From contig JAICGZ010000013.1 of NCBI GenBank assembly GCA_025922875.1, positions 1-42,682 on the forward strand: a stretch of DNA of 42,682 bases, in the 5' to 3' direction. The position numbers and the translations under genes are program-made. The notes below the pieces were generated by a model. That model was not told the DNA's origin, ran no database searches, and was given only the letters and a program-made list of their open reading frames with translations. The stretch is from Pyrinomonadaceae bacterium. GTDB lineage: Bacteria; Acidobacteriota; Blastocatellia; Pyrinomonadales; Pyrinomonadaceae. Of the stretch, positions 3,422-42,630 are shown one piece after another. The first letter of the stretch is position 1. The number at the start of each line of letters is the position of its first letter.

Positions 3422-3549
3422 GCTTTGCCCGAAAAGTCTGATTCTCTGTGCAACCTCTGTGGCCCCCTGTATCTGTGGTTGTTTTTACGAATGATCCTTA
3501 ACCACAGAGGCACAGAGAAGAAGCGAAAATAAACTTTCGGGCAAAGCCC
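3422..3549. repeat. CTCTGTG-heptad intergenic palindrome with both terminal motifs
   Basis: GCTTTGCCCGAAAAGT...CTCTGTGCAACCTCTGTGG...ATCTGTGGTT / AACCACAGAGGCACAGAGAAGAAG...ACTTTCGGGCAAAGC. Confidence 0.9.
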
Positions 3550-3576
3550 GTTGAAGCCACAAAGAGCGCCGCCCAA

Positions 3577-6036
3577 TCATCGCGGGCTCATGTCTGAAAG
3601 ATCGCCGGGGTGCGGACTCTCCTCTCGCAACATCGATGCTTTCGCTGCATCTGCGGCCGACTCCACAGTTAGCGCAGGCGCGGGGTTGAATCCCGGATAT
3701 TTGACTCTGCGATGGTGAATATTCATCAGTGCGTGGACAATGGCCTCCCTGACGCGCGCCACCTCGTCGAGCGTGATCCCGCACTCGTCGAGCTGATCGT
3801 CGGCCAACACCGCGTCCGAGATCCGGCGGATGATAGCCTCGACTTGTTCGCGCTCGGGCTCATCGAGGCTGCGAACGGCGGCTTCGCTCCCGTCGGCGAG
3901 CATCAGGATGGCCGACTCGCGAGTCTGCGGCTTGGGTCCCGGATAATGAAACAATCGTTCGTCAACGGGCACGCCGGGGCGCGCCTGTCTCTTCGCCTTT
4001 TCCAGGAAGAAGTGGATGGGCCGCGTGCCGTGGTGGCCCGTGATCATCTCGACGACCTGCTCCGGGAGGCCCGCCTCTCGAGCCAGTTCGACCCCGTAGG
4101 AGACGTGCCGCATGATTTGACGCGCGCTCTCGAGCGGATCCATGTCGTCGTGCGGATTCAGCCCGGCGTGCTGATTCTCGACGAAGAGGTGCGGCGCGTG
4201 GAGCTTTCCGATGTCATGGTAGTAGGCACCGATCCGGACGAGCAGCGGATTAGCGCCGATCGCCTTCGCGGCCTCCGTGGCGACGGAGCTCATGATGTAA
4301 GAGTGCTGGTGGGTGCCGGGCGCGCGAACCGCGAGTTCACGCAGGAGTCTGTGGTCCGCGTTGGCGAGTTCCAGCAGCCTAACGTCACTCGGGATGTCGA
4401 ATACCCATTCTGCCGCCGGCAGCACCAGCGCTGCTAATCCGGCGCTGAGGAGCGCACTAAAAGCGGCGGCTCCGAAGTTTGCCAACAAGGTGCTCGGCGG
4501 TGGAAACGTCGGAGCCGCCATCAGTGTGATGATCGCGATTGCTAACGTGTTAGCTGCGATCAGCACGAGCCCCGCTCGCAATACGATGAGCCGTGCACGA
4601 TAGCGAGCGGCACTCCAGAGCACCGCGGTTGAACCCACGGCCGCATACATTCCGATGGCGATGCCACCGCCGTACTGGCCCTGAGTCATGAGAGAGATGA
4701 GCGGAAGAATGACCAGTGCGAGCGCCAGCGCCAGCGCTCTGCTTACGAGAAGTGCGATGACGAGGGGACCGATCGCGAAGGGGATCGCAAAGAGAAACTG
4801 CGTCGCACCCACGCCGCCGAGTGGTATCGTTCCGAGCCGATCCGCGCCGATCGCGCCGAGCCTCGCAATTGCGATCTGAATGAGGAGCATGAGCGCCACG
4901 AAGAGGAACGTTCGTGCCCGCGATAATCTCGTTCGCATGCTCGTGCCGGAAAGTTTCCAGAGGGCGTAGAGGAGGACTCCGATAAACGCAGCGAGCGCTC
5001 CCCACCGCGGTCCGAGGCTCCTCGCTTGCGTCTGTAGCCTGAGCACTGCAAGCGCTCGCGCGATACGTGCATCGACTGGTTGGCCACGATAGGCGATCAC
5101 GTCGTTAGCGCGGTACTCGTCGGTTGCTTCCGGTACGTTCTCTCTTGCAGCCTGCCTTGCCTGCTCAGTCAGAGCGACGTTAGGCAAGATTGTCGGCGCA
5201 ACGATGGAATCGAAGGTCTCAGCGAGTTCGCTGCGTTCCTGCAGAGTGAGACTACCAACCCGACCGAAGTCCTCACGCAGTGCGCTCTTCGCATCAGAGA
5301 GGCGCACCACGTCACGAAACAGCAAGGGGTACGCTCCGCCGCCGCGCGCGTCACGCACGAGCAACTGCGGGCTGGCGGCTTGGTCATCTCCGATGATATA
5401 GCCCGAGGTGCGGCGACTGATGATGCGGACGATCTGGTCAGTGAGCGCGGAGTTGAATTTGTGGCGTGCGAGAATGGCGAGCGTCTCGCTGCCTCCAAAC
5501 GGGAACTCCTGGCTATGTCTGGCGACAAACTCATCGGGTTCGAGTGTGCCCGCTAAGCTGGCTGCAGCTTCCTCTTCGTAGACCGTACGCAGCGAACGGA
5601 GTGACGAGGCCAGCCCTTCGACGGCCCTTGCGTTCTTCTCAGGAGCGTAATCGAAGACGCGCAGTACACTCTCCTCCGCCATCCGCTGCATCTCAGCGGT
5701 GCGTTCCGGATCAGGGACGGACAATAACCGTGGCGCAATGATCTCTGAGGGGACGATGTCGCCGATGCGGTAGTCGAAATTCGGCTTGGCTGTCGCGCTG
5801 ACGACAAGCCACGAAGACACGCCGGCAACGGCGCAGGCGACGAGGGCGACGAGCACGCGTGAGGCAGCCGGCGATGTGAAAAAGCGGTGTGGCGTGAGCC
5901 CGAACAAGCGCAAGCGATCGCACCTCCTCAAAGAAATCTCGTCCGCGCAACTGAATGGCGTGAACTGAGTGTTTTTCTTATCAGGTGCCGGCGGAGCTTG
6001 CAATGGCGCGGAAAGCAAAGCCGGTTCAAGGGTCAA
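3577..6036 (-). CDS. 7TM-HD family phosphodiesterase (PgpH/YqfF-like, HDIG domain)
   Basis: HQHSYIMSSVATEAAKAIGANPLLVRIGAYYHDIGKL ... ITGHHGTRPIHFF after multiple TM segments and an extracytoplasmic domain. The true start may be TTG at 5913 (in frame), preceded by the Shine-Dalgarno-like GAGGAGG; upstream residues look non-conserved. Confidence 0.9.
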   Translation of the reverse strand: MTLEPALLSAPLQAPPAPDKKNTQFTPFSCADEISLRRCDRLRLFGLTPHRFFTSPAASRVLVALVACAVAGVSSWLVVSATAKPNFDYRIGDIVPSEIIAPRLLSVPDPERTAEMQRMAEESVLRVFDYAPEKNARAVEGLASSLRSLRTVYEEEAAASLAGTLEPDEFVARHSQEFPFGGSETLAILARHKFNSALTDQIVRIISRRTSGYIIGDDQAASPQLLVRDARGGGAYPLLFRDVVRLSDAKSALREDFGRVGSLTLQERSELAETFDSIVAPTILPNVALTEQARQAARENVPEATDEYRANDVIAYRGQPVDARIARALAVLRLQTQARSLGPRWGALAAFIGVLLYALWKLSGTSMRTRLSRARTFLFVALMLLIQIAIARLGAIGADRLGTIPLGGVGATQFLFAIPFAIGPLVIALLVSRALALALALVILPLISLMTQGQYGGGIAIGMYAAVGSTAVLWSAARYRARLIVLRAGLVLIAANTLAIAIITLMAAPTFPPPSTLLANFGAAAFSALLSAGLAALVLPAAEWVFDIPSDVRLLELANADHRLLRELAVRAPGTHQHSYIMSSVATEAAKAIGANPLLVRIGAYYHDIGKLHAPHLFVENQHAGLNPHDDMDPLESARQIMRHVSYGVELAREAGLPEQVVEMITGHHGTRPIHFFLEKAKRQARPGVPVDERLFHYPGPKPQTRESAILMLADGSEAAVRSLDEPEREQVEAIIRRISDAVLADDQLDECGITLDEVARVREAIVHALMNIHHRRVKYPGFNPAPALTVESAADAAKASMLREESPHPGDLSDMSPR

Positions 6037-6040
6037 GGGG

Positions 6041-6275
6041 CTTTGCCGAAAAGTACCTCTTTAGGAGCGCTACCGCGTCTCCAGGTTTTCTTTGCGCCTT
6101 TGCGTGAGAAAAGGTTACGCAGAGGTCTCCTGCTTTGCCCGAAAAAGTGGGGCATACACGCTCTTCTCTGTGCCACCTCTGTGTTCTCTGTGTCTCTGTG
6201 GTTGTTTTTTTCCAAAGCACAGTGAACCACAGAGGTTGCACAGAGAAGAAGCGAAAATAGACTTTCGGGCAAAGC
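6041..6275. repeat. Compound repeat: TTTGCGCCTTTGCGTGAGAAAA core followed by CTCTGTG palindrome, three terminal motifs
   Basis: GCTTTGCCGAAAAGT...CTTTGCGCCTTTGCGTGAGAAAAGG...CAGAGGTCTCCTGCTTTGCCCGAAAAAGT...CTTCTCTGTG...CACAGAGAAGAAG...ACTTTCGGGCAAAGC. Confidence 0.88.
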
Positions 6276-6283
6276 ATTAATCC

Positions 6284-7681
6284 TTACCGAAGCATACTCT
6301 CGCCTCTCACCGTCAGCTCATTAGTTACTCCGAATAGTCCCGGCACTCCTCGCGCGCGAAGATATGCCTGGTCCTTGTCGGCCTGAGTGTCAACCACTCC
6401 TTTGAGCCTGGCGCGTCCGCCCTCGACAATGATGTGAATCGCCTGGCGCGATCCTATGCCGTATCTGAACAGCGGTGAGTTGCCGCCATAGATCGCGTTG
6501 TAAAGTTCGCGACGCAGGCGCTCATCGTTCGGTGAAACCGGCAACACTCGGATTTCATTGACCACTCGGCTTACGCCTTGCACGTCCTTGACCACTGCTT
6601 CCGCCCGCGATTTTGTGTCAGGCGGGGTAGTGACTTCTCCTCTAAGAACAACTGTGTTGTCAGGCAACACCTCAAATTCGATCCAATCGAAGACCGTGTA
6701 ATAAGGTAGCTCCGACAGAAGTTCATGTCTGACTTCGCGTGCAACCGCGTTCATCGGCCGACCAGTCATCAACCCGACGCGTTCACCCTGAGCTTGCGGA
6801 ACGTTCGCCGCAACCGGTGGGGTGTTCGTTATCATGCTCCAGTTCCATGCGACCCGATTAACAAAAGCAAGATCGGCGAGGTTTGCTTTTACACGAGCCC
6901 AGTCGCGCCGCGTCCGTTCGGGAAGGGTATGCCGCCTTAAGAACTCATCGATTGCATCTGCATTGTTTAAAGCCAATCTGATGTCAGTCGATTTGAGCTC
7001 CTTTGAGCTTTCGGCATCCTGCTCCAGCTTGTCCACTGACCGTTCAAACTGAGCCATGACAGTGTTCATGAAGTCTTCATACGCCGAACCATCGATGCGA
7101 CTGCGATCAAGACCGGAATCGAAGCTGTCGCGAAACTGGTCCGTGGTCTCTTCCAGACGTTGAATGATCTGCCTGGCCCAGGTTTTGTTCAGCGCGGGAG
7201 TCTGTATCGTTTGTGGCGCCCACGTCCACGTCACACGGTAAAGACGGGCCAGTTGGTCCAGATCAAAGCGTACCATGCGCCAGTCGCGTTCTGCCGCGGG
7301 CGAAAAATTGTGCCGCTGCATGAACATGTCGAGATACATACCGCGCCGGAGAACTGCATTGACGTCGAACGTGTTGACGATATTGTCGTCAGCCCTGTCT
7401 TTCAGCCGATCAGTTGCAAATTCGAGTTCATCCACCAGTGCATTGGCCTGGTCTTCGACGTCGGTGCTGTTGAAGCGACTTCTATCCAGCGCGGCATCAA
7501 TGCTCCTGCTGAACCGGTCGGTGTTTGTTTCCAATCGGTTGAGCATGTTTTCTATTTGCGCCGTTGTCCTAAACCCCTGGCCGGCTACATTGCTTGCGCC
7601 TGCCATGATCATCAAGAGAGCGGCCGTTATTACCAGCAAACCTGATGACCTGATCCTCGTAAGTATTTTCATAATTTCCAT
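6284..7681 (-). CDS. Secreted protein with two N-terminal helical WxW modules and two C-terminal BON domains
   Basis: Signal peptide ILTRIRSSGLLVITAALLMIMAGASNVAGQ. BON-like VLPDNTVVLRGEVTTPPDTKSRAEAVVKDVQGVSRVVNEIRV and IIVEGGRARLKGVVDTQADKDQAYLRARGVPGLFGVTNEL. Paralogue of 34514..35899. Confidence 0.85.
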   Translation of the reverse strand: MEIMKILTRIRSSGLLVITAALLMIMAGASNVAGQGFRTTAQIENMLNRLETNTDRFSRSIDAALDRSRFNSTDVEDQANALVDELEFATDRLKDRADDNIVNTFDVNAVLRRGMYLDMFMQRHNFSPAAERDWRMVRFDLDQLARLYRVTWTWAPQTIQTPALNKTWARQIIQRLEETTDQFRDSFDSGLDRSRIDGSAYEDFMNTVMAQFERSVDKLEQDAESSKELKSTDIRLALNNADAIDEFLRRHTLPERTRRDWARVKANLADLAFVNRVAWNWSMITNTPPVAANVPQAQGERVGLMTGRPMNAVAREVRHELLSELPYYTVFDWIEFEVLPDNTVVLRGEVTTPPDTKSRAEAVVKDVQGVSRVVNEIRVLPVSPNDERLRRELYNAIYGGNSPLFRYGIGSRQAIHIIVEGGRARLKGVVDTQADKDQAYLRARGVPGLFGVTNELTVRGESMLR

Positions 7682-7863
7682 AGTTTCCCTCCGTTTTAAA
7701 ATAGCCTAGCAAGCAGACAGGCGGGCGAAACCGTGGCATCTCCTAGCTCCCGTAAGTGGTAACACTCAGCACACGTCTTATAAGGAAGCTTTGGTCAACT
7801 TTTACATAGGTCTTCAACTGTTTCGCGACTTATTGCGTACACAATGGCGGCAGTTGTTCGATC

Positions 7864-8981: not shown

Positions 8982-9102
8982 TGTTGCATCTATGCTAGGA
9001 AGAAATGCATGACGCAGAAACAGAACAATTACTTAGGCGATCTGGGTGATTCCACTCATTCGGCTACGGAATTTTTTGCGATACTTCAGCAAAGGTTGTT
9101 TG

Positions 9103-10542: not shown

Positions 10543-10555
10543 CTGTAGGTGCGCT

Positions 10556-10666
10556 ACTTCTTCTGTGTGCAACCTCTGTGTCCTCTGTGTCTCCGTGGCC
10601 GATTTCCTGATATTCATTAACCACGGAGAACACAGAGGTTGCACAGAGAACCTTTCCAGACAAAGC
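10556..10666. repeat. CTCTGTG-heptad intergenic palindrome
   Basis: GTGCAACCTCTGTGTCCTCTGTGTCTCCGTGG / AACCACGGAGAACACAGAGGTTGCACAGAGAA. Confidence 0.9.
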
Positions 10667-10675
10667 TGGGTGCCA

Positions 10676-12346: not shown

Positions 12347-12367
12347 TTCGCCTCTCCCCTTATTTTT

Positions 12368-17239: not shown

Positions 17240-17683
17240 TCAGTCACCAGCAGTAAGATCGATCAGCGCCAGGCCCGACTCGCGGTCCGGCCGGCGCCTG
17301 AGATATGCCGGAGATTCGACGAGCACCACCTCCAGCGTGGGCCGTACATAAGCCTCCAGTAGATGTCCGCCGTGCGCGGTACCGTCGGACTTTCCCACCA
17401 CCACATGCGCATGTACTTTGGGACGTCCATCATCCAGCGCGATATCGCCGGTGAGTGAAACGACCTCGACCTGCTCCAGCAGTGGTATCCTCCGATAGTC
17501 CTTTTGTTCCCAATCAAAGTAGCCGAGCGTCACACGCTCGAATGCGCCGATCGCAGTGAAGTGGCTTGCAGAAAGACGATTCTCTTCGGCGAAGTTATGA
17601 AGTCCCGCGGTCACCTCATCGCCTGCTGCAAACACAATCGCAAATGTTCGGCCGCCTTGTTCTGAAAGCAGTTTTGATTTCAT
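17240..17683 (-). CDS. PPC/DUF296 domain protein
   Basis: GDEVTAGLHNFAEENRLSASHFTAIGAFERVTLGYFD ... PKVHAHVVVGKSDGTAHGGHLLEAYVRPTLEVVLVE. Upstream part of the track ORF (to 17836) is translated repeat sequence; real start is ATG 17683 (MKSKLLSEQ). Confidence 0.85.
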   Translation of the reverse strand: MKSKLLSEQGGRTFAIVFAAGDEVTAGLHNFAEENRLSASHFTAIGAFERVTLGYFDWEQKDYRRIPLLEQVEVVSLTGDIALDDGRPKVHAHVVVGKSDGTAHGGHLLEAYVRPTLEVVLVESPAYLRRRPDRESGLALIDLTAGD

Positions 17684-17700
17684 TTGATCGCCCTTTAAAT

Positions 17701-17797
17701 TTCTTCTCTGTGCAACCTTTGTGTTCTCTGTATCTCTGTGGTGGTGATCACTTTTCAACCACAGACACACAGAGAACACAGAGGCTTCACAGAGATA
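17701..17797. repeat. CTCTGTG-heptad intergenic palindrome
   Basis: TTCTTCTCTGTGCAACCTTTGTGTTCTCTGTATCTCTGTGG / CAACCACAGACACACAGAGAACACAGAGGCTTCACAGAGA. Confidence 0.9.
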
Positions 17798-17799
17798 AT

Positions 17800-20700
17800 T
17801 TAAGACCTGCCACGCATCAGTGTTCGCAATCCCCATCCCATTCCGCCAGCCACTAACGCACCGGCGCCGATTAAGAGAGCTGCTTCGGGTTTCGAAAGCG
17901 TTGCACTATTGCCGTTCGCGAAATACTTTTGCTCCGGGTATTCAGTGATCATGCTTTCGCCGCGGTTGCGCAGTGCCAGTTGCATCACCTCCGCGAGATG
18001 TATGGCTTTCCGATCCGTCGTTTGTTCAATCTGTTCACGACAACTGAATCCATCGGTCACTATTAGTGTGTCCTTTGCTGCTTTGCGCACCGCGGGGAGC
18101 AACACGCGCTCGCCGCAACGAAGCGAAACGTCGTAGTGTTCCTTTTCAAAACCGAATGCGCCCGCCATGCCGCAGCAGCCAGTCTCCGGCATGGTAACGT
18201 CCACTTCCATCTGCTTGAGCACCCACAATTCATCGTCCATTTTCATGATTGCTTTGTGATGGCAGTGACCATGGACCAGGGCTTTCAGCGGGAGCTTTGG
18301 AAGTGGGAATTGCGGGGCTTCCTTTCGCAGAAACTCACTCAACAGAAACGTCTGTGACGCGAGTCGTTTCGCGTCTTCTGAATTTGGAAAGAGGTTAATC
18401 AACTCTTCTCGAAAGACGGTCGCGCAGCTTGGTTCGAGCACTACCACGGGTGTGCCCCTTTGAATGTGATCGCTCAACACGTCAAGAATGCGTGCCAACA
18501 TCGCTTTCGCTTGCTCGAGCATGCCCCAGTCATACAGCGGCCGGCCGCAACAAAGGTTCTGCCGGGGTACTTCAACCTGAAATCCTGCGGCCTCCAGAAC
18601 GTCAACCGCCGCTTGTGATGTCTGCGGATGAAAGAAGTTGTTGAACGTGTCGGGCCACAGGAGAACGTGAGGTTTGTTCTCACTTTGAGCGTTATCGCTG
18701 CGATGCTCTTCACGTCTGCGAAACCACTGTGCAAACGTTTCGCGTGCAAAGCGTGGTATCGATCTATCCGGATGCACGCCGGCGACAAACCTGGCGATCG
18801 ATCGCGCCAGAGGCGCATGCGAAAGAAAATTCGCGATGCCAGGCACGAGCGCCGCGATTCGGGCCCAGAAATGGATTTGGCCCATGGTGTGTGCCGAGCG
18901 CGGTCTGAAGTGGTGCTCGAAATAGTGTGAAAGAAACTCCGCCTTGTAGGTTGCGACATCAACCTGCACGGGACATTCCCCCTTACATCCTTTGCATGCA
19001 AGACACAGGTCCAACGCTTCTCTTACTTCCTCACTCCTCCAGCCGTCCCGGATCGTTTCGCCGCGAATCATTTCGCCAAGCAGACGAGCCCGGCCGCGCG
19101 TGGAGTGTTTCTCTTCCAGGGTGACCATGTAGCTCGGGCACATCGTTCCGCCTTCTAATCGCCGGCACACTCCCGCGCCGACGCAACGCTCAGTCGCCTC
19201 AGCGAAACTGAAACTGTCGTCTGGATAGCTAAAATGGGTCTTGACCGGTGGCGGGTCCCACGAAGTGCCCAACCGCAGATGTTCATCCACTCGATAAGAA
19301 TCGATCAGCTTGCCAGGATTCATCTTCCACTCCGGGTCCCAAATCTTCTTGAATTCCTGGAATGCCTCGATCGTCTCTTCGTCAAACAGCCGCGGTAGAA
19401 GTTCGCCACGTGCCTGACCGTCGCCGTGTTCGCCTGAAAGGGAACCACCCCACGAGACAACGAGGTCGGCGGCCTCCTTTAAAAAGGAGCGAAAATTCTC
19501 GATGCCCTGCGCCGTTTTCAGATCGAATGTCAGTCGCGTATGGACGCAGCCATCACCAAAATGACCGTAAAGTGCTCCCTCGTAACGGTATTTATCCAAC
19601 AACGCACGAAGACTGCGGAGATAGCCGCCGAGGTTTTCGGGTGGAACGGCTGAATCCTCCCACCCTTCGTGATTCTCCGGCTCGCCGGGAATCTTTGCGG
19701 TGGCGCCTAAACCTTCTTCGCGTAGCGTCCAGATCAACCTCTCTTCAGCCGCATCGTCGAAAAGCTTGAACGAGACGGCGCTACCCGTCTTCTCCAGGAC
19801 TTCCATCAACGCACGCGCGCCGGCGTTCGCGTCCTCCTTTGTTCTTCCTCCAAATTCAACGAGCAGCCACGCAGATCCGTCCGGCATCATTTTCAGATGT
19901 TGCGGATGCATTCCTTTCTTCTTCATGTCGTCGATGAAGCTGTCGTCGAGTGCTTCCACCGCGAGCGGGTCATACCGCAAAGGTTCAACTACGTGATCCG
20001 CGGCGTCGAAGATGTCCTCGTACCCGATGACCAGAAGTGATCGCGCCGGAGGCCAGTCGACGAGTTTCGTTGTGGCTTCGAGGACAAGAACACACGTGCA
20101 TTCCGAGCCAACCAGAGCACGGGCAACATGAAATCCGTTCTCAGGCAACAGCGCGGGCAGGTTGTAACCGGAGACACGTCTCGGAAGCTGAGGGAAGTTC
20201 CGACGAATCAAATCGGAGTAATTGTCTCTGAACGCCTTGAGCTGAGCATAAATCTCTCCACGCCGGCCGCCCTCGTGAATCAGGCGTTCGCATTCATCAT
20301 CAGTTGTCGCGCCGACGCGCATACGCGTTCCATCATAGGTGAGTATTTCGAGTTCCTCGATGTTGTCCGAGGTGCGACCGGCCATGACGGAGTGGACGCC
20401 ACAAGAGTTGTTTCCGATCATTCCGCCGAGCGTGCAGCGACTATGCGTGGCGGGATCCGGACCAAACGTGAGGTCATGCTTGTTTGCTTCCTTTCGCAGA
20501 ACGTCGAGCACCAGGCCGGGTTCAACGCGCGCGCGTTTCTTCTGCGGCTCGAGCTCGAGAATTCGATTCATGTACTTGGAGAAATCGACTACGACTCCGA
20601 AGTTGACTGTTTGTCCCGGAATCGCGGTACCTCCTCCGCGTGCAAGAATTGGAGCACCGTGCGCACGACACGCTTGCACGGTTTCTACAACGTCATCCGC

Positions 20701-20979
20701 TTCTTTCGGCAGGACGACTCCCAAAGGGACCATGCGGTAATTCGAAGCATCTGACGCATACAAACCGCGATCGCCCAACTCAAAGCGGACTTCTCCCTTG
20801 ATCGCTTTACGCAACGTTCGTTCAAGAGACGCGACATCAATCGTCAATTCGCCGTTTGTTCCCGTCTGCAGACGGTTTTCAATTTTCACGGGCGGTGTTT
20901 TGGTCGCAATCGTTACGAGCCGCTGTGCAACGGTTTTCAGTTTCCCATCCGTTGATTTGTTCAAATAAGGAATAGTCAA
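17800..20979 (-). CDS. FAD-binding oxidase / Fe-S (CCG-domain) fusion, D-lactate dehydrogenase-like, with C-terminal hydrophobic tail
   Basis: PILARGGGTAIPGQTVNFGVVVDFSKYMNRIL, GGMIGNNSCGVHS, GSLSGEHGDGQARGELL, CLACKGCKGECPVQVDVATYKAEF, EPSCATVFREEL, CCGMAGAFGFEKEHYDVS. Start is TTG and overlaps the upstream stop. Confidence 0.9.
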   Translation of the reverse strand: MTIPYLNKSTDGKLKTVAQRLVTIATKTPPVKIENRLQTGTNGELTIDVASLERTLRKAIKGEVRFELGDRGLYASDASNYRMVPLGVVLPKEADDVVETVQACRAHGAPILARGGGTAIPGQTVNFGVVVDFSKYMNRILELEPQKKRARVEPGLVLDVLRKEANKHDLTFGPDPATHSRCTLGGMIGNNSCGVHSVMAGRTSDNIEELEILTYDGTRMRVGATTDDECERLIHEGGRRGEIYAQLKAFRDNYSDLIRRNFPQLPRRVSGYNLPALLPENGFHVARALVGSECTCVLVLEATTKLVDWPPARSLLVIGYEDIFDAADHVVEPLRYDPLAVEALDDSFIDDMKKKGMHPQHLKMMPDGSAWLLVEFGGRTKEDANAGARALMEVLEKTGSAVSFKLFDDAAEERLIWTLREEGLGATAKIPGEPENHEGWEDSAVPPENLGGYLRSLRALLDKYRYEGALYGHFGDGCVHTRLTFDLKTAQGIENFRSFLKEAADLVVSWGGSLSGEHGDGQARGELLPRLFDEETIEAFQEFKKIWDPEWKMNPGKLIDSYRVDEHLRLGTSWDPPPVKTHFSYPDDSFSFAEATERCVGAGVCRRLEGGTMCPSYMVTLEEKHSTRGRARLLGEMIRGETIRDGWRSEEVREALDLCLACKGCKGECPVQVDVATYKAEFLSHYFEHHFRPRSAHTMGQIHFWARIAALVPGIANFLSHAPLARSIARFVAGVHPDRSIPRFARETFAQWFRRREEHRSDNAQSENKPHVLLWPDTFNNFFHPQTSQAAVDVLEAAGFQVEVPRQNLCCGRPLYDWGMLEQAKAMLARILDVLSDHIQRGTPVVVLEPSCATVFREELINLFPNSEDAKRLASQTFLLSEFLRKEAPQFPLPKLPLKALVHGHCHHKAIMKMDDELWVLKQMEVDVTMPETGCCGMAGAFGFEKEHYDVSLRCGERVLLPAVRKAAKDTLIVTDGFSCREQIEQTTDRKAIHLAEVMQLALRNRGESMITEYPEQKYFANGNSATLSKPEAALLIGAGALVAGGMGWGLRTLMRGRS

Positions 20980-22235
20980 AACAGATTCCCTGCGTTATCG
21001 AACTCCATAGGCGACAGGGGGCCATCTACAATTAGCTTTGAATTTTGCTCAGCCTCCTTCAGCAACGGCGCCGACAGCCACAGCTCGTCAAGTGATGCTG
21101 TGTTACGGATGCGACACACGCGCGGTTGTTCCGGGGCGAGTGAGGAGAACAGTGCGACTTCGATCGCGTCTCTGTCCGACGCGAGGGCGAGAGGCGGTGG
21201 ACCTTCCCTTGTGTTGATTACGCCGGGTTCCGTAGCGGTCAACAGATTCACATACGTGACGTGTGGATCGTAATCATTCAAAAACCGCCTGGTAGTGAAA
21301 TCAGCGAGACCGATGCCGAGTCCATTGCCCAGCGACTCAGGCGTCAACGAAAGGACCACGATGCGCTTGTAATCCGGTTCGCGTGCGCCGCCTTTCAAAC
21401 GCCAATCCCCGATCACGTTCAGATCCATTCCCGTGCCGGAAATATTCTTGCCGAGTTGATCGACGACGAGCAGGTCGATGGTGGAGAAGGGAATTTTTGC
21501 GACGTGAGGTTTTGCCAGATCAAGCAAGCGCCTGTCTGTTTGCTCAAACTGGTCATAATCAGGCGGCACAACTTCGATGTGTACCGGCTGCTGGAATCCG
21601 TTTTCAACCACGGCGACGCCCGCGAGGATCTTCGCGTGTGCAAGCGTCAACTTTGGCACCGCCTTCACTGATTCCCAGAGACCATTCGTATGCGCCTCCT
21701 GAGCTCCGCGCTGCTTGCCCAAGCCGACGGTTGCCATCTTCAAAAGCCCGGAGGCTACCCCCGACGCATTCTCGGGATGCGTCTTGATGCGTGCCAGCAC
21801 GATGATGCCGTCCGCTTGAGCAGCGATCTCGTCGAGATGTGCCACAGCTCCCGTAGCCGCGGTACCAAGCGCCTGCGTGTTCATCGTGGCGCGAATCGGC
21901 GTGCGAACGGTGTCTTCAGTAATGCCGAATCGTTTGAGAATTTCTACCTGACCATCTGCTGTAGCACCACCGTGGCTGCCCATGGCGGGAATGATGAACG
22001 GGTCACCACCGGAATGTCTTACGGCCTCGACGATACCGGTCAATATATCGACTGAAGCGCGAATCCCACGGCTACCGGCGGTGATGGCTATTTTGTCGCC
22101 CTTGTTTATTCGCTCCAGCAGTCCTGATTGGACCAGTCGCTGGTAAGTTTCAATGCGAGGATCAGTGATGTGGTTTGACGGCAGTTTTTGTCTGACGTGA
22201 CCGAGGAACGGCACAGCGCGTCGTGGTAAAGTCAT
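20976..22235 (-). CDS. LarA/DUF2088-family protein (lactate racemase-like)
   Basis: GDKIAITAGSRGI, PAMGSHGGATADGQ, ARIKTHPENASGVASGLLKMATVGLGKQRGAQEAH. Likely start is ATG 22235 (MTLPRRAVPFLG); the track extension to 22367 is repeat-derived. Confidence 0.85.
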   Translation of the reverse strand: MTLPRRAVPFLGHVRQKLPSNHITDPRIETYQRLVQSGLLERINKGDKIAITAGSRGIRASVDILTGIVEAVRHSGGDPFIIPAMGSHGGATADGQVEILKRFGITEDTVRTPIRATMNTQALGTAATGAVAHLDEIAAQADGIIVLARIKTHPENASGVASGLLKMATVGLGKQRGAQEAHTNGLWESVKAVPKLTLAHAKILAGVAVVENGFQQPVHIEVVPPDYDQFEQTDRRLLDLAKPHVAKIPFSTIDLLVVDQLGKNISGTGMDLNVIGDWRLKGGAREPDYKRIVVLSLTPESLGNGLGIGLADFTTRRFLNDYDPHVTYVNLLTATEPGVINTREGPPPLALASDRDAIEVALFSSLAPEQPRVCRIRNTASLDELWLSAPLLKEAEQNSKLIVDGPLSPMEFDNAGNLF

Positions 22236-22276
22236 TGCTGGATGCCGCTTCAAAACTACGTCCCCCCTTGCGCGAC

Positions 22277-22357
22277 TACTTCTCTGTGCAATCTCTGTGT
22301 TCTCTGTGTCTCTGTGGTTGTATTCTTCATTAACCACCAGAGTTTGCAGTGAGAAGA
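22277..22357. repeat. CTCTGTG-heptad palindrome, degenerate right arm
   Basis: ACTTCTCTGTGCAATCTCTGTGTTCTCTGTGTCTCTGTGGTT / TTAACCACCAGAGTTTGCAGTGAGAAG. Confidence 0.85.
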
Positions 22358-22379
22358 GCCTGTACACCGGCGTTTCCCG

Positions 22380-24131: not shown

Positions 24132-24432
24132 CTTTTGTGTCCCTTCAACTTGCGCGTACTCTTCTCCTTGATGGTGAGCGCTTTATCTTCTCTCTCACAT
24201 TTCATGAATTCATCATGCTTTTGCCTCATTGGTCGTGAATATGTGATAGGTAGTTTCGCAAATATACTCATCGTGAACTGCGGACGTACTCGCTTGAGTG
24301 ATTACACTCATTAACGAGAAGGGCGCAGCGCAGTCGCCGCAACTTCTAACTAACCCAAGATGATCGACATTGTTTCGCGATAGGTGGTCTGTTGAATTCT
24401 GCAACGCCCCTAATGCGGCTTGCACGAAACTA

Positions 24433-24533
24433 GTCTTCTCTGTGCAATCTCTGTGTTCTCTGTGCCTCTGTGGTTAATGAAATGCTTAGAAGACAACCAC
24501 AGAAGCACAGAGAACACAGAGATTGCACAGATT
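24433..24533. repeat. CTCTGTG-heptad intergenic palindrome
   Basis: GTCTTCTCTGTGCAATCTCTGTGTTCTCTGTGCCTCTGTGGTT / AACCACAGAAGCACAGAGAACACAGAGATTGCACAGA. Confidence 0.92.
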
Positions 24534-30211: not shown

Positions 30212-31425
30212 TGCGGCAGTCCGTGAAAATCTTGTTGCTATTGGCTGCCGGCGCAGCAGGTCTGTTCAAAAAAGTTGCGGCCGCTCCTTCCGATCGCGAA
30301 ATAAATAGTAAAGACGAACAAAAGCATTCGAAGCTAACGCTTTGGCAAGCGGCTAAGGTACTGATCCTGGCGGGAGTTGCCGTTGGAGTTATCGGGTTCC
30401 TGGTGTTGATTTCGGGGCTGGTGCCAATCAAAGCAAGTTCCGGACATTGGAGAGTGACGCGCTGGTTTCTTACCTTCGCGATGCATCGCTCCGTTGGGAC
30501 CTACAGTACGCCGATCGAGGCGCCGCCGCTTTCAGATCCGGTGCTCGTGCAAAAGGGAGCGAGTGCTTATGAAAACAATTGTCGTGTTTGTCACGGCAGT
30601 CCGAAGCTGCCGCATCCACCTGTGGCGCAACACATGCTTCCGCGCCCGCCATACTTGCCCCATGTCGTTTCAGAGTGGGACACCGAGGAACTCTTTCATA
30701 TCGTAAAACACGGTCTTAAGTTTACGGGAATGCCCGCCTGGCCCTCGCAGCAACGTGATGATGAGGTATGGGCTGTAGTTGCGTTTTTGCTGGAATTCCC
30801 GAAGTTGGATCAAAACAGTTATCGCGGTCTGGTTGGAACTGATGCGGCGGCGGAGTTTGGTGAGGCGTTCGATCAGGTGCTGAGACATTGTGAAAGCTGT
30901 CATGGCCCACAGGGAATGGGGCGTGGATTTGGCGCAGCACCACGGCTCGCCGGGCAAAAAGTGGACTACCTTTATTCATCTTTATCGGCATACGCTCGTC
31001 AACAGCGATACAGCGGAATCATGCAACCAGTAGCAGCGCGATTGAATGAGGAGCAGATGCAGAGACTCGCGCAGCATTACGCAAATCTGCCGCGCAATCT
31101 TCCAACTGAAACACCTGATGCGGCTGGGGCTGTTGAGCGCGGGCAGAAGATTGCAAACGAGGGAATCCGCGAGCAACGCATACCGGCATGCAACTCGTGT
31201 CATCGACAAAGCGGCCCGAGAAATCCGATCTATCCGGAACTGTCAGGACAGTACGCGAATTACATCGTCCTGCAATTGAAACTCTTCCAGCGCGAGCAAC
31301 GAGGCGGCACTTCCTATGCTCACCTGATGAGACACGTTGCGCCGAATCTAAGCAACGATCAAATGCAGGACGTCGCTAACTACTACGAATCGCTAGCCCC
31401 TCAAGTCGCTTCCGCTGCCCGGTAA
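30211..31425 (+). CDS. Membrane-anchored multiheme cytochrome c (three CxxCH)
   Basis: Three heme motifs: NCRVCHGS, HCESCHGPQGMG, ACNSCHRQSGP; N-terminal TM. Confidence 0.92.
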   Translation: MRQSVKILLLLAAGAAGLFKKVAAAPSDREINSKDEQKHSKLTLWQAAKVLILAGVAVGVIGFLVLISGLVPIKASSGHWRVTRWFLTFAMHRSVGTYSTPIEAPPLSDPVLVQKGASAYENNCRVCHGSPKLPHPPVAQHMLPRPPYLPHVVSEWDTEELFHIVKHGLKFTGMPAWPSQQRDDEVWAVVAFLLEFPKLDQNSYRGLVGTDAAAEFGEAFDQVLRHCESCHGPQGMGRGFGAAPRLAGQKVDYLYSSLSAYARQQRYSGIMQPVAARLNEEQMQRLAQHYANLPRNLPTETPDAAGAVERGQKIANEGIREQRIPACNSCHRQSGPRNPIYPELSGQYANYIVLQLKLFQREQRGGTSYAHLMRHVAPNLSNDQMQDVANYYESLAPQVASAAR

Positions 31426-31529
31426 CTTCTCTGTGCAATCTCTGTGTTTTCTGTGTCTCTGTGGTTAATAATTGTTGGGGAAACACAAACCACAGCGACA
31501 CAGAGAACACAGAGGTTGCACAGAGAAGA
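31426..31529. repeat. CTCTGTG-heptad intergenic palindrome
   Basis: ACTTCTCTGTGCAATCTCTGTGTTTTCTGTGTCTCTGTGGTT / AACCACAGCGACACAGAGAACACAGAGGTTGCACAGAGAAG; begins right after the cytochrome c stop codon. Confidence 0.92.
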
Positions 31530-33023: not shown

Positions 33024-33120
33024 TCTTCTCTGTGCAATCTCTGTGTTCTCTGTGTCTCTGTGGTTGTTTTTCTTAAGCAATTCATAACCACAGAGAACAC
33101 AGAGATTGCACAGAGAAGAA
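33024..33120. repeat. CTCTGTG-heptad intergenic palindrome
   Basis: CTTCTCTGTGCAATCTCTGTGTTCTCTGTGTCTCTGTGGTT / AACCACAGAGAACACAGAGATTGCACAGAGAAG. Confidence 0.92.
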
Positions 33121-33146
33121 GTCGCGCAAGAGAGTTTTGTGCAAAG

Positions 33147-33602
33147 TCAGACCATCGCTTTATTAAACGCCATATATAACTCGGACAAACGATCCGTGGC
33201 GGCCGGATCGCTCCGCGCAAGCAATGTGATTAGTTCGTCTCGCTGATTCAATAACGGTCTCAGACTCTCCCTCTGAGCCGGCGTTAAGTCTGAAGGCCGG
33301 CCCAGTTCATCCACCTGTTCGAGTAATGAGGTGAAAAAATTACTGGCCGCCAAACGTGCACGCTCATATTCGCCGCGCCGCGCGTCAACTACTGCTGATG
33401 CAAGATCGTTCTCCAACCGGCAGAGTCTCAAGTTGCGCTCCGCTACATCGAGCTGGGCGCCGCGTTGGCGAGCTACAAGCCACATGGGAACCAAACCAAT
33501 GAGAAAAACTGCTACCAACACGACGGCATAAATAATGAAGCGACGACGCGTCGAACTATCCGCCTGCTCGTGTTCTTCGGGTTTTTCGCTGCTCATGTTC
33601 AA
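33147..33602 (-). CDS. Single-TM hypothetical protein (paralogue of 12640..13122)
   Basis: TM AVVLVAVFLIGLVPMWLV, then ENDLASAVVDARRGEYERARLAASNFFTSLLEQVDE...RDELITLLARSDPAATDRLSELYMAFNKA. Confidence 0.8.
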   Translation of the reverse strand: MNMSSEKPEEHEQADSSTRRRFIIYAVVLVAVFLIGLVPMWLVARQRGAQLDVAERNLRLCRLENDLASAVVDARRGEYERARLAASNFFTSLLEQVDELGRPSDLTPAQRESLRPLLNQRDELITLLARSDPAATDRLSELYMAFNKAMV

Positions 33603-34483: not shown

Positions 34484-34513
34484 CTTTCACTTCTCCTTTA
34501 CATGCATAGCTCG

Positions 34514-35899
34514 TTAACGCGGCATCTGGCTCTCGACCATCAACTCATTGTTGACTGCAAAAAGACCGGGAACGCTCCGCGCGCGTGCATACGCAACGTT
34601 CCTGTCGCCCTCGTTATCCACCACGCCCTTGAGTGTCGCTCGTCCGCGATCGACGATTATGTGAATGGCCTGACGCGAACCGACACCGTATCTGAACAGT
34701 GGTGAATCGAAACCATAGATCTCGCGATAGAGCGCTCGACGAAGCCGCTCGTCGTTGGGTGAAACCGGCAGCACTTCGATCTCGTTGATTACGCGACTGA
34801 CGCCCGATATGTCCTCGATTACGTCTTCGGCTCTCGATTTGGTATCGGGCGGAGTCGTAACCTGGCCGCGCAGCACCACCGTGTTGTCGGGAAGTACTTC
34901 AAACTCGATCCAATCGAAAACACTGTAGTACGGAAGATCGGAAAGCAATTCGTGCCTGACCTCACGAGCAATCGCGCCTGCCGAGGGTGCGAGGCGGCGA
35001 TTAAGACTCACGCGTTGTCCCTGGGCACTTTGCGAGTTACTTTGTCGCGGCATACTCCGCGAATTTCGCGCGGCGATGGGCGCCGCTGGTCTCGACCAGT
35101 TCCAGGTGACATGATTCAAGAACGCCAAATCGTCGAGATTCGCTCTCACGCGAAACCAGTCGCGCATCGCCCTCGCGCTGGTATTGTGCTTTCGCAAAAA
35201 GTCGTCGATCGCTTTGGCATTGTTTAAGACTATGTTCAAGTCATCCGTGTTCAAGTTGCCTGATCTATCGGATTCATCCTCGAGCCGGTCAAGAGTGTTC
35301 TCAAACGTCGCGACGACCTTATTCATGAAGTCCTCGTACACCGTATCATCGAGGCGGCTACGGTCAAGCGACCCTTCAAAGCTGTCGCGAAAATCGTTCG
35401 CGGCCTCCTCCAGGCGGTCGATCACCTGTCGCGTCGACGCTCTGTTCATCGCCGTATCAGTAGATGGTACCCATACCCAGGCGATCGAGTACGCGCGGGC
35501 CAGTTGCTCGAGATTCGTCTTTACGTGATTCCAGTTTGTCTGCGCGGCAGGCGTGAGCTTGTGACTCTTCATAAACATGTCCAGTTGCAGACCGCGGCGA
35601 AGCACCTCTCTCACGTCCGACGCGATAGTGAAGTCGTCATCCATCCGGTCCTTGAGTCGATCGGCCGCTAACTCAAATTCATCTACCAGCGCATTGAACT
35701 GGTCTTCCAAATTGCTGTCGTCAAGCCGGCCTCGATCCAGCGCCGCGTCCACGCTGGTGCTAAATCGATCCGTATTCGTTTCCAGGCTGCTGATTAACTG
35801 CTTCGTTGCAGCCGTCGTCCTCAGCTGTTGACCATCCGCCGCGGGCACCTGGAGGACGGCGAGCAATATAACGAAGGTTAAAAGTGCAAACAATCTCAT
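34514..35899 (-). CDS. Secreted protein with two WxW helical modules and two BON domains (paralogue of 6284..7681)
   Basis: Same architecture as 6284..7681, with near-identical blocks such as REVRHELLSDLPYYSVFDWIEFEVLPDNTVVLRGQVTTPPDTKSRAE. Confidence 0.87.
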   Translation of the reverse strand: MRLFALLTFVILLAVLQVPAADGQQLRTTAATKQLISSLETNTDRFSTSVDAALDRGRLDDSNLEDQFNALVDEFELAADRLKDRMDDDFTIASDVREVLRRGLQLDMFMKSHKLTPAAQTNWNHVKTNLEQLARAYSIAWVWVPSTDTAMNRASTRQVIDRLEEAANDFRDSFEGSLDRSRLDDTVYEDFMNKVVATFENTLDRLEDESDRSGNLNTDDLNIVLNNAKAIDDFLRKHNTSARAMRDWFRVRANLDDLAFLNHVTWNWSRPAAPIAARNSRSMPRQSNSQSAQGQRVSLNRRLAPSAGAIAREVRHELLSDLPYYSVFDWIEFEVLPDNTVVLRGQVTTPPDTKSRAEDVIEDISGVSRVINEIEVLPVSPNDERLRRALYREIYGFDSPLFRYGVGSRQAIHIIVDRGRATLKGVVDNEGDRNVAYARARSVPGLFAVNNELMVESQMPR

Positions 35900-36303: not shown

Positions 36304-36490
36304 GGCTTTGCCCGAAGAGTTTGATTTCTCTGTGCAACCTCTGTGTCCTCTGTGTCTCTGTGGTGGTTTTTACGAATCATCTCCAATTAGGAGAAGAACT
36401 CTCGCGCAAAGGCGCAAAGCGCTACCGCGTTTCCAGGGGGTTTTCTTTGCGCCTTTGCGTGAGAAAAATGTTTCGCACAGAGGTCTCCAA
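36304..36490. repeat. Compound repeat: left CTCTGTG arm joined to CGCAAAGGCGCAAAG...CTTTGCGCCTTTGCG core
   Basis: GGCTTTGCCCGAAGAGT...CTCTGTGCAACCTCTGTG...CTCTGTGG then CTCGCGCAAAGGCGCAAAGCGCTACCGCGTTTCCAGGGGGTTTTCTTTGCGCCTTTGCGTGAGAAAAATGTTTCGCACAGAGGTCTCC. Confidence 0.88.
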
Positions 36491-36510
36491 ATGTGAGCGC
36501 TTTCGGTTTA

Positions 36511-37860: not shown

Positions 37861-38041
37861 CTTTACCCTCCTCCTTTGACGATCTGCTTCGGACAGCAGC
37901 GCGCCGAAATCAAATATGTTCTAAGTTAACTTTGGGCGACGATGCCGGCATCGGTCGGACCACCTAAGACGCGTGAGTGATTTCAGCCAGGCGCAAACAT
38001 TTTGAAATCAATCGGACATGGTTCAGACAGAGATCGCAGCG

Positions 38042-38183
38042 GTGCTTTGCCTCGAAAGTCTGATGATAAGGTGATCGTGCAAAGCCTGATAAGGGTATTG
38101 AGGGCGGCGACCGGCGCAACTGTAGGGGCGGCTACGGAGTGCCGCCCCTACAGTTGCGCCCTTGAAGTTCTGACTCTTGAGCA
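38042..38183. repeat. Type-C repeat: perfect 20-bp inverted repeat in degenerate terminal motifs
   Basis: GGCGCAACTGTAGGGGCGGC (38113-38132), 8-nt spacer, GCCGCCCCTACAGTTGCGCC (38141-38160); flanks GCTTTGCCTCGAAAGT and GACTCTTGAGCAAAGCC. Confidence 0.85.
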
Positions 38184-38295
38184 AAGCCCGCTACTCAGCG
38201 CCGATCTCTAATGTAGGTGTTACCACTTAACTCTTGAGTGAAAGTTCGGACGAACGTGTTCTTTGACGTTGTTATGCTCGTTCAAGGGGGGAACA

Positions 38296-38522
38296 ATGAG
38301 AGGAAAAATTGTTGCGGCACTGATCTCGGGAATCGTGCTTATGAGTTTTATGGCGGGCTGTGATCGTGAAGACCCAAAGTTCGTGTAACGGGAACAGTCC
38401 GCGCAGTGGCTCTCGTCGATCTCGAGCGTGAGATAGGCTGGGATCTCGATCCGCAAATCGAGGCTGAACTTGAAGACGTTAAAGCGGTGATCGTTGCTTC
38501 GTCTGTACAGCGATTGCAGTAA
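38296..38522 (+). pseudogene. Small lipoprotein split by a -1 frame change (pseudogene, sequence error, or frameshift gene)
   Basis: Frame A: MRGKIVAALISGIVLMSFMAGCDREDPKFV*. Frame -1 continues from CCCAAAG: VRVTGTVRAVALVDLEREIGWDLDPQIEAELEDVKAVIVASSVQRLQ*. Confidence 0.5.
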
Positions 38523-38524
38523 CC

Positions 38525-38630
38525 GGCTTTGCCCGAAAAGTCCTGATCGGACTTCTTCTCTGTGCAATCTCTGTGTCCTCTGTGCCTTTGTGTTAAGGAT
38601 CATTCGTAAAAACAACCACAGAGACACAGG
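38525..38630. repeat. CTCTGTG palindrome, right arm truncated
   Basis: GGCTTTGCCCGAAAAGTC...CTTCTCTGTGCAATCTCTGTGTCCTCTGTGCC / ACAACCACAGAGACACAGG then unique sequence. Confidence 0.88.
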
Positions 38631-38761
38631 CGTTGATTTCGGCTGCCTGCTCGACCCGCCTGAATTTCTTATCCCTCAAGCTGTTGGCCCACCGGCGATC
38701 TTTCGGCCGAAACCGTTCCGGATACACATCCGGTTCGGACAGGCGTTTTAGCGCAAATAGT

Positions 38762-39637: not shown

Positions 39638-39700
39638 ATCCAATGGCTTTACACAAGAGAGACAATGGCTCGCTTCTCGCAGCCTCAATTGTTTTGATCG

Positions 39701-39767
39701 ATTTGCGTGAGAAAAATGTTTCGCACAGAGGTCTCCAAAGATGATTTGAGTACTTTCGGGCAAAGCC
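39701..39767. repeat. Right-end fragment of compound repeat
   Basis: TTTGCGTGAGAAAAATGTTTCGCACAGAGGTCTCCAAA matches 36457-36491; ends ACTTTCGGGCAAAGCC. Confidence 0.85.
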
Positions 39768-39829
39768 TATCGGATTATTGGAGCATGTCATACCGCGGTA
39801 CGATCCCGTACAGATGACAGACACGCGAT

Positions 39830-40987: not shown

Positions 40988-41027
40988 GTTGCGGCTGGGA
41001 AGTGGCGGCCACGAACAAACACAATGA

Positions 41028-41618
41028 TCAGCCGGCAATCCACTTGCCGATTACGCCGAAAGCACTTAAGAGACCAAGGATCGTTAGGCCGGCGATCGCG
41101 GCAAGCGCACTCGCAACCCACCACCCTCGCCGCGGCGAATTGCTCAAGGCTCCGGCCCAACCGATGGCAGCCCACAGCAGTCCTTCGATCAAAAACCAAG
41201 GCTCGTTGAAGAAAAGCGCTTGCAAGTCGGCTTGGCGCCGGTCGATCGTCTTCCAGAAGGGATATGGAATCGTAAGTTGACCGGTAAGGCTCGCGATCCG
41301 CTGGATAATTCCGATCAGCGCGTGTGATACACATGCGACTGCGATGAACCAGCAGAGGGCGAGTAGAACAGGATGTGCGCTGGAACGTCGCCAGGCATTT
41401 CTCAACACGAGAGGTAGTGCCGCCGCTACAAACAACAGCACGCCGGCGATGGCGTTAATTCGTCGAAACTGCTCGATAGACACTGGCGTGCCCAGCATTC
41501 CGAAAGTACCACCGGCGGCGTAGTACGATCGATAGAGCCCGTAACAGAAAGCCCAAAAGGCCGCAAGCCAACTCGCCTGGCTCAGCAATCGCGCGCGTGA
41601 CTGAGAGACGGACTGCAT
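41028..41618 (-). CDS. Hypothetical multi-TM protein
   Basis: 196 aa, several hydrophobic segments, plausible coding bias. Confidence 0.7.
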   Translation of the reverse strand: MQSVSQSRARLLSQASWLAAFWAFCYGLYRSYYAAGGTFGMLGTPVSIEQFRRINAIAGVLLFVAAALPLVLRNAWRRSSAHPVLLALCWFIAVACVSHALIGIIQRIASLTGQLTIPYPFWKTIDRRQADLQALFFNEPWFLIEGLLWAAIGWAGALSNSPRRGWWVASALAAIAGLTILGLLSAFGVIGKWIAG

Positions 41619-41703
41619 AAATCCTTATTCAACGACTCCGGACCTGGTTGCGCGAAAGAAGTGAACTACACGGTTGCGCTTCGATTTGGAACGAGATCGC
41701 TGA

Positions 41704-42402
41704 TTACACTGGCGCGGGGTCTGACCAGATGCGGTAGCCGAGATATCCGAGGCCAATCATCAAAAGCACTATTCCCATGTTCGACAGCAGGTTGATAACC
41801 AAATTTGACGCAGGACCGGTCGGAGCGAGAACGACGTTTCCGACAATCGCCCAGACTGCTGAGACAAGCAGCAAGTAGCCTAACCATGCCGGCTGGGCCC
41901 GGCGGCGAATGAACGGGAGCGCGACCAACACGGCTCCGAGGAGCCATGCAAGCAGTCCAGCGAAAAAGGCGACAACGAACGCGAGCGGAGGCGGCGAAGA
42001 GGCGCCAACCAGCGATGGCGCTTTGGCAGCCAACCACGGTAGTACGAGCACGGCATAGAGACTTAAGAACAAACCGAAGAACATCCAGGCTGCCGCGAGC
42101 AGTGTTACTCCGATATCTGTCATGGATGGAGAGCCAGTAATTCGACCATAGAGCACCGGCATCCCCAGGACCACCAGTACAGCACCTATCACACCAGTAA
42201 CATTAATCAGTATCCAGAGCCACTCGCGGGCAGAGGTGGCGGGGTCGGCGCCGGCCGTGATGACCGACCGTAGCACCGTGTGAACAATAAAGGCGATAGC
42301 ACCGATCACCAGGGCCAATCCACCGGCTCGGCGGAGCTGCCTGTTCGTCATCTGTTGGTACCTTTCGAATCCGAGTCTCGTGCTGCCGACTTCTGCCTTC
42401 AT
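41704..42402 (-). CDS. Hypothetical multi-TM protein
   Basis: About six hydrophobic segments; start either ATG 42402 or MTNRQLRR further downstream. Confidence 0.72.
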   Translation of the reverse strand: MKAEVGSTRLGFERYQQMTNRQLRRAGGLALVIGAIAFIVHTVLRSVITAGADPATSAREWLWILINVTGVIGAVLVVLGMPVLYGRITGSPSMTDIGVTLLAAAWMFFGLFLSLYAVLVLPWLAAKAPSLVGASSPPPLAFVVAFFAGLLAWLLGAVLVALPFIRRRAQPAWLGYLLLVSAVWAIVGNVVLAPTGPASNLVINLLSNMGIVLLMIGLGYLGYRIWSDPAPV

Positions 42403-42501
42403 TAGTTCTGACCGGGGCTGCACTCAGCAATATGCATGGTACCAACCGCTCCGAAGAAGGTCAGCGCGGCAACGTACATCAGCAAGGTTCAATACGCAGT
42501 T

Positions 42502-42630
42502 TACCCTCTGTGCAACCTCAGTGTTCTCTGTGCCTCCGTGGTTAGTATTTCCCAGTAACAACCACAGCGACACAGAGAGCACTGAGTTTGCACTGAGAAG
42601 AAGTCCACCAAGAGACTTTTCGGGCAAAGC
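42502..42630. repeat. CTCTGTG-heptad palindrome with right terminal motif
   Basis: CCTCTGTGCAACCTCAGTGTTCTCTGTGCCTCCGTGGTT / AACCACAGCGACACAGAGAGCACTGAGTTTGCACTGAGAAG...GACTTTTCGGGCAAAGC. Confidence 0.9.

Follow-up and report, generated by a model that had tools for sequence, protein, structure and literature searches.

Contig 13 of a Pyrinomonadaceae metagenome-assembled genome (MAG; 6.8 Mb, 542 contigs), a 42.7-kb stretch analysed over its whole length and called the window below, carries eleven copies of a palindrome built from CTCTGTG heptads, and inverted heptad arms of this kind flank genes of the GxxExxY nuclease family elsewhere among bacteria. Judging from sequence comparison, it is somewhat more probable than the contrary that the window palindromes are gene-less derivatives of GxxExxY cassettes, the nuclease being proposed as the mover and copying by repair as the mode of spread, with one palindrome lineage captured by a miniature inverted-repeat transposable element (MITE). 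The match between the arms and the ends of GxxExxY cassettes suggests an unrecognised kind of mobile DNA. The chances appear about even for a wider proposition, namely a widespread class of bacterial elements in which a GxxExxY nuclease gene lies within inverted arrays of CRCRRAK heptads (variants CACAGAG, CGCAAAG, CACGGAT, CGCAGAG, CGCGAAG and others), and which move without a transposase and leave high-copy, gene-less palindromes behind.

The repeated unit is an arm of ~40 bp with four CTCTGTG heptads, starting 11, 9 and 8 bp apart, and it normally occurs as an inverted pair. In the window the arms hold three to four heptads each and the inverted partner arm is present. CTCTGTG was counted 58 times there against 5.4 expected, the highest count among 100 shuffles being 10. 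A repeat search placed ten copies in one 60-nt family and all eleven in a 23-nt family, and so recovered, arms and inverted partners included, the same eleven copies that a first-pass annotation of the window had listed.

The link with GxxExxY genes emerged from a search for more widely spaced arms. In two genera, inverted arms ~415 bp apart were found to enclose a small gene, and both gene products are GxxExxY proteins by TIGR04256 (140.8 and 154.0 bits, cut-off 35) and by PF13366 (136.7 and 147.8 bits, cut-off 22), that is, PDDEXK_3 of the PD-(D/E)XK nuclease superfamily. A third GxxExxY cassette was predicted from an arm spacing of 398 bp in genome G324 and then confirmed, and a fourth was found in G222. 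A cassette from the genus of the window (locus L069) has a four-heptad 11/9/8 arm identical in layout to the window arms. For a sample independent of the heptads, ten GxxExxY genes were collected by protein similarity, eight from plasmid-collection records and two from this genome. Inverted arrays scoring 20–32 were present at four of them, from Bacteroides and Bernardetia (both CACAGAG), Gemmatirosa (CGCAGAG) and Sphingomonas (CGCGAAG), the best of 250 control open reading frames (ORFs) reaching 14. Two more, from Treponema and from this genome (CACGGAT), scored 12 against a control 95th percentile of 11, and three others showed direct repeats scoring 18–34 against a maximum of 14 in 177 controls. 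Inverted heptad arrays thus bracket GxxExxY genes in Acidobacteriota, Bacteroidota, Gemmatimonadota and Proteobacteria.

Two of these cassettes are insertions. The Sphingomonas cassette sits between fabD and fabG, which are adjacent, with the cassette absent, in S. paeninsulae; the Bacteroides cassette sits between radA and the gene of an FAD protein, which are likewise adjacent, and the cassette absent, in Parabacteroides distasonis. The latter insertion begins directly after a stop codon, a position also frequent among the window palindromes. In Gemmatirosa, one replicon has CGCAGAG arms that both flank the GxxExxY gene and form several gene-less palindromes within 40 kb. All 13 GxxExxY proteins compared share the predicted catalytic residues D, ExK and Q without exception; a search by sequence returned no relative of solved structure.

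In the explanation that we favour as the simplest, the inverted arm pairs would mark the two ends of a mobile cassette, complete when it carries the GxxExxY gene, and the window copies would be its gene-less palindromic derivatives. The predicted nuclease would recognise the heptad arms and cut there, and DNA between or beside the arms would be copied into new sites during repair of the break. Such insertions would lack a target duplication and would survive in intergenic gaps, often just after stop codons. One lineage of the palindrome would have been captured within a MITE with the terminal inverted repeat (TIR) GGCTTTGCCCGAAAAGTC, and so moved by a SWIM-zinc-finger DDE transposase at RGTTNAARY-like sites. 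The nuclease is put forward as the probable mover because it is sited between the arms in many lineages with its catalytic residues intact; this role and the step of copying by repair are both inferred from sequence.

The alternative that survives best, unlikely and nevertheless to be taken seriously, is that the palindromes move by some other mechanism and that GxxExxY genes are passengers caught between two arms. Several observations speak for it and weigh against the nuclease as mover. Most elements are gene-less, and their interior varies freely in the genera read; in Nostoc, an unrelated MITE-like palindrome also contains heptad arms. The portion of the 6.8-Mb genome that was read, ~0.94 Mb as large pieces and some smaller loci besides, yielded no GxxExxY gene with CTCTGTG arms, and it is chiefly for this reason that we retain the alternative; the same portion holds two GxxExxY genes, one with CACGGAT arrays and one without arrays. 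Similarly, ~0.2 Mb around the heptad arrays of the palindrome-rich relative G057 was free of GxxExxY genes. The repeats are direct, not inverted, at some members of the family (Prevotella, Fusobacteria, Persicobacter), and the heptad-independent sample comprises ten genes only. On the other hand, a random passenger would not be expected to recur, as this family does, between arms of differing heptad sequence in several phyla, and the catalytic residues stay invariant.

The mobility of the palindrome itself was established from copies that lack the MITE ends. Of 68 copies collected from the genome, 50 are flanked by a TIR-like sequence on one side or both and 18 on neither; as the set was gathered partly through TIR searches, the true share of TIR-less copies is probably larger. 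Nine genomes of the genus, including this one, were compared by means of a chimeric protein query made from genes flanking several TIR-less copies, and four gaps were read (an FAD-oxidase gene had no orthologue in the congeners and gave no synteny anchor). The palindrome of the DUF151–ParA gap has no comparable counterpart in seven of seven congeners. The one between FtsY and RibD is present in none of eight, one of which carries an unrelated insert, and the one between AckA and phosphoketolase in none of three, one of which (G004) carries an unrelated GGGGTGGCC palindrome. In the FAHD–transaldolase gap seven of eight congeners have none, and G003 has a heptad palindrome of its own elsewhere in the gap. 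These empty orthologous sites, for which the first-pass annotation had called, show that the palindromes were recently mobile. Against the empty orthologues, neither a target duplication nor a TIR remnant was visible at the four sites. As a separate observation, the palindromic repeat GGGGTGGCC/GGGGCGGCC..CCGCCCCTACA that fills the AckA–phosphoketolase gap of G004 (L314) has similar repeats at window positions 11–45 and 38125–38159.

TIR-less copies lie at a median of 9 bp from the 3′ end of the neighbouring gene, for example TAA|TCTCTGTG. The spacer between heptads two and three is mostly TC in copies with TIRs and mostly TT in copies without, a split that fits the capture of one palindrome lineage by the MITE. 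As a mobile unit, the heptad palindrome is distinct from the MITE, separable from it and older. RNA pairing was considered as the cause of heptad conservation and rejected, as the inter-heptad spacers of other genera are often non-complementary between arms; for this genome, subfamilies confound the agreement of spacers between the arms of one copy.

The MITE layer was characterized separately. GGCTTTGCCCGAAAAGTC and its inverse stand at the borders of many copies; 105 matches to the 16-base TIR core were counted in the genome, and none to the reversed control. The same TIRs enclose varied cargo: the CTCTGTG palindrome, a CTTTGCG palindrome, a third palindrome with GGCGCGGC, or almost nothing (46–57 bp). 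Clear TIR pairs span ~46–265 bp with no transposase gene inside, as expected of short, non-coding MITEs. For 18 of 53 candidate TIR pairs, the flanking 9-mers agree at seven or more of nine positions, against a mean of 2.0 and a maximum of 8 in 2000 shuffles, and this signal vanishes in shifted registers; the duplicated target resembles RGTTNAARY. In relatives, the ends GGCTTTGCnCRAAAAGTC bound full elements of 2.3–4.3 kb with perfect or one-mismatch 9-bp duplications (e.g. TCCAAAAGC, AATCACTCG and AGCTACAGC). The full elements examined encode a protein of ~420 residues that combines a SWIM zinc finger with a DDE_Tnp_1 domain; its best NCBIfam match is the IS5 family at 114.8 and 111.2 bits, below the cut-off of 140. 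In this genome the SWIM-DDE transposase was found as fragments only. Such TIRs are frequent in this species alone; G057 gave 0 TIR matches. The TIR-bearing copies are a true MITE, moved by a SWIM-finger DDE transposase with a 9-bp target duplication. One TIR-bounded stretch, C63:85-1636, was tried as a full element and rejected, as it encodes no recognisable transposase.

Three loci of such elements deserve mention in their own right. At L123 (G000:C63), positions 358–624 hold a fragment which by eye resembles the C-terminus of an integron integrase and lies between two TIR copies. In the full SWIM-DDE element at L204 (G048:C10:127464-131804), the ORF at 2790–5240 encodes an 816-residue passenger resembling, again by eye, a DNA methyltransferase; given this passenger, SWIM-DDE transposons may spread modification or restriction genes. 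At L205 (G034:C27:116579-120273) two 99-bp MITEs and a 3.5-kb transposase element stand in a row with the same 9-mer, TGTCCTAAA, between them, and it looks as if each element had inserted into the other's duplication.

A rival reading assigns all copies to a single MITE family that the SWIM-DDE transposase would move, with the heptads as internal filler and the TIR-less copies as those that lost their ends. The clear target-site duplications (TSDs) and full partner elements agree with this, as does the TIR-like flank of 50 of the 68 copies, although that set was partly collected through the TIR. We nevertheless consider it improbable, since TIR-less copies occupy sites that are empty in congeners without TIR remnant or duplication, palindrome-rich relatives are nearly free of TIRs (none at all in G057), and the spacers of the two groups differ, mostly TC with TIRs and mostly TT without. 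A shade less credible still is the proposal that selection maintains the palindromes as functional RNA or DNA elements (terminators, processing sites or protein-binding sites), and that they are not mobile DNA. Their very stable hairpins, their highly conserved heptads and the short distance of TIR-less copies from gene 3′ ends would suit such a role; the absence from orthologous sites in nearly all congeners compared, with no conserved placement at the four sites, the wide difference among genomes of a single phylum (0 in some, hundreds of heptad pairs in others) and the lack of any Rfam match would not. Least probable of all is that the palindromes are doublets of repetitive extragenic palindromes (REPs) mobilised by a Y1 REP-associated tyrosine transposase (RAYT): although the copies are indeed inverted doublets, intergenic and free of target duplication, and one REP_Tyr_transpos gene of the genome scores above the NCBIfam cut-off, no heptads lie within the 3.2-kb locus of this one RAYT found, no Y1 transposase was found in the palindrome-bearing G057, G021, G024 and G010 (three of these four assemblies being 87–91% complete), and the arms, read directly, have no GTAG or CGTC foot, a single arm forming no hairpin.

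From the window alone, the first-pass annotation had proposed a non-autonomous, high-copy mobile element of MITE- or REP-like nature and had asked for a RAYT or transposase sharing its ends. Its general proposal is borne out by the TIRs with 9-bp duplications, the empty orthologous sites and the patchy copy number across species. MITE-like is an apt description of the TIR-bearing copies, with their TIRs, 9-bp duplications and partner transposase, and not of the TIR-less ones, which have neither TIR nor duplication. REP-like had to be abandoned, the sole RAYT found being without nearby heptads and the copy-rich G057 without a Y1 transposase; it is the SWIM-DDE transposase of relatives, and not a RAYT, that shares ends with the MITE. 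That the palindrome is separable from the MITE, and that its arms flank GxxExxY genes elsewhere, lay beyond the view of that first reading.

Across the genome, 410 exact heptad pairs were counted against 3 for the reversed control pattern, so that the excess expected beyond the window is present. Among the matches listed (~100 heptad pairs), pairs collapse into ~32 copies, and with 410 pairs in total the copy number is therefore estimated at ~100–130 in 6.8 Mb. The window is clearly a hot spot, with 11 of the ~32 copies among the matches listed. An additional 799-kb sample of the genome contained 2 copies, which is no estimate of density because the sample came largely from contigs without listed matches. 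The palindromes are patchy in the class (present in 31 of 59 genomes) and in the phylum (86 of 297), with 0 to hundreds of heptad pairs per genome, and forward and reverse pairs are nearly equal in number (e.g. 134/126 against 0 in G298). When the strict arm pattern was run against named genome contigs, the exact matches were two contigs of one Blastocatellia MAG. Several other genera have the arms in opposite orientation, enclosing 40–110 bp of unrelated sequence between genes. Single CTCTGTG arms occur on Nostoc and Anabaena plasmids, two of the Nostoc cases within a different palindrome; the latter (L253, L255) is an unrelated palindromic element whose ends resemble GGGAYTTCCAAATAAA. In G057 (L063, L091, L092, L348-L358) one arm is expanded into long CACAGAG/CACAAAG arrays, with several copies in less than 1 kb. 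A phage or viral origin was considered and rejected: viral contigs gave no exact match, and no GxxExxY gene was found in phage records or in a single-protein scan of viral contigs.

Other heptads are also abundant in this genome. The 799-kb sample holds 175 tandem CRCRRAK heptad pairs against 0 in the reversed control, and in an unrestricted search of all heptads over the same sample CGCAAAG, CACGGAT and CACAGAG were among the most frequent. At least two further heptad families are scattered through the genome, CGCAAAG with 61 clusters in ~0.84 Mb and CACGGAT with 29 clusters (L366-L405 and the window).

The coordinates of the window features are collected in Table 1. Most copies are full palindromes, as had been proposed; the copy at 22277 has a decayed right arm and that at 38525 is truncated, while at 36304 the left arm is of the CTCTGTG type and is joined to a different, CGCAAAG palindrome. 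Clear flanking TIRs, unnamed in the first-pass annotation, border the copies at 3422, 6132, 36304, 38525 and 42502, and possible TIR remnants those at 10556, 24433 and 33024. All copies are intergenic, as it had stated; the seeming exceptions at 17701, 22277 and 38525 are over-called ORFs that read through the repeat. For copy 8 the DNA fold was calculated as −35.8 kcal/mol against −9.8 kcal/mol for shuffles (z = −11.4).

Table 1. Heptad palindromes and related TIR elements in the window
Feature	Position	Strand	Remarks
Copy 1, heptad palindrome in TIR element	3421..3548	+	TSD CGTTGAAGC at 3412-3420 and 3549-3557, perfect
Partial TIR element, CTTTGCG heptads (second heptad family)	6038..6130	+	
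Copy 2, heptad palindrome in TIR element	6131..6276	+	adjoins TIR-led CTTTGCG element 6038-6130
Copy 3, heptad palindrome	10559..10650	+	at most a decayed right TIR
Copy 4, heptad palindrome without TIR	17704..17796	+	
Copy 5, left arm intact, right arm decayed, without TIR	22280..22356	+	
Copy 6	24417..24532	+	decayed left TIR 24417-24434, heptad palindrome 24436-24532
Copy 7, heptad palindrome	31427..31527	+	begins directly after stop codon of gene ending at 31425
Copy 8, best-preserved palindrome	33026..33118	+	possible decayed right TIR 33132-33148
Copy 9, left TIR and left heptad arm only	36304..36364	+	
CGCAAAG heptad palindrome joined to copy 9	36401..36470	+	
Copy 10, left TIR, left arm, truncated right arm	38525..38627	+	
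Right end of CTTTGCG-type TIR element	39702..39772	+	right TIR TTTCGGGCAAAGCC; no CTCTGTG palindrome
Copy 11, heptad palindrome	42504..42631	+	intact right TIR 42614-42631

Two further observations concern window genes. Where heptads are translated as if coding, false gene starts result, HHRDTENT and TKAQRTQRLHREE among them (ORFs 17240-17836, 20976-22367 and 38220-38627), and spurious protein starts of the ‘HRDTENTE’ and ‘TQRTQR’ types are explained in this way. The genes at 6284-7681 and 34514-35899, 28 kb apart, are similar, with repeats ~71% alike, and the first has a BON domain.

Repeats built from such heptads are spread across environmental genomes, and we found no explanation for them; GxxExxY genes, annotated in many phyla, have no known role. 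Linking the two gives both a testable identity, that of a nuclease with its own repeat ends. Should movement without transposase or target duplication prove true, it would add a route by which short DNA spreads in bacteria, and many anonymous heptad repeats of environmental genomes would belong to the GxxExxY element class. In the open-access literature, the scope of our search (subscription journals and preprints lay outside it), GxxExxY is mentioned in two papers, is tied to repeats in neither and is the subject of no biochemical report; the sole match to the heptad strings was a paper on Bacteroides fragilis capsule loci. No prior description of the heptad palindrome–GxxExxY system was found in that literature.

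Among known systems, free-standing homing endonuclease genes are likewise nuclease genes inserted between genes and found in many lineages; GxxExxY cassettes differ from them in their inverted heptad-array ends and high-copy gene-less derivatives. The TIR-bearing copies resemble MITEs derived from insertion sequences, such as MITEAba12 (PMC6382973), which, in the excerpts of its description, is short and gene-less, has the TIRs of a full element and makes a 9-bp duplication; here a separately mobile palindrome lies inside, and the partner transposase, of the SWIM-finger DDE type, scores below the NCBIfam cut-offs for IS5. BrickBuilt of Porphyromonas gingivalis (PMC4596501), as portrayed in parts of its report, is also a short tandem repeat inside a MITE and always intergenic, but its units are of 23 bp, run in one direction and belong to one species, in contrast to inverted heptad arms in many phyla with a linked nuclease gene. 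The heptameric tandem repeats of Nostoc and Xanthomonas (PMC4692102) share the high copy number of heptamers and, to the extent that partial text of the source tells, are G-rich and quadruplex-forming, whereas the present heptads form inverted arms that share their ends with a gene cassette. A further close parallel is REPIN/RAYT, in which REP doublets are associated with a domesticated Y1 transposase (PMC3116915, PMC3733652): both are inverted pairs of short arms, intergenic, of high copy number and without target duplication, and in both a dedicated enzyme is proposed to move the repeats in trans. REPs are imperfect palindromes with a GTAG/CGTC foot, whereas the arms described here are heptad arrays with no link to a RAYT. 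A nuclease system of the kind proposed would work like REPIN/RAYT with an unrelated enzyme, the candidate being a protein of the PD-(D/E)XK nuclease family encoded between the arms.

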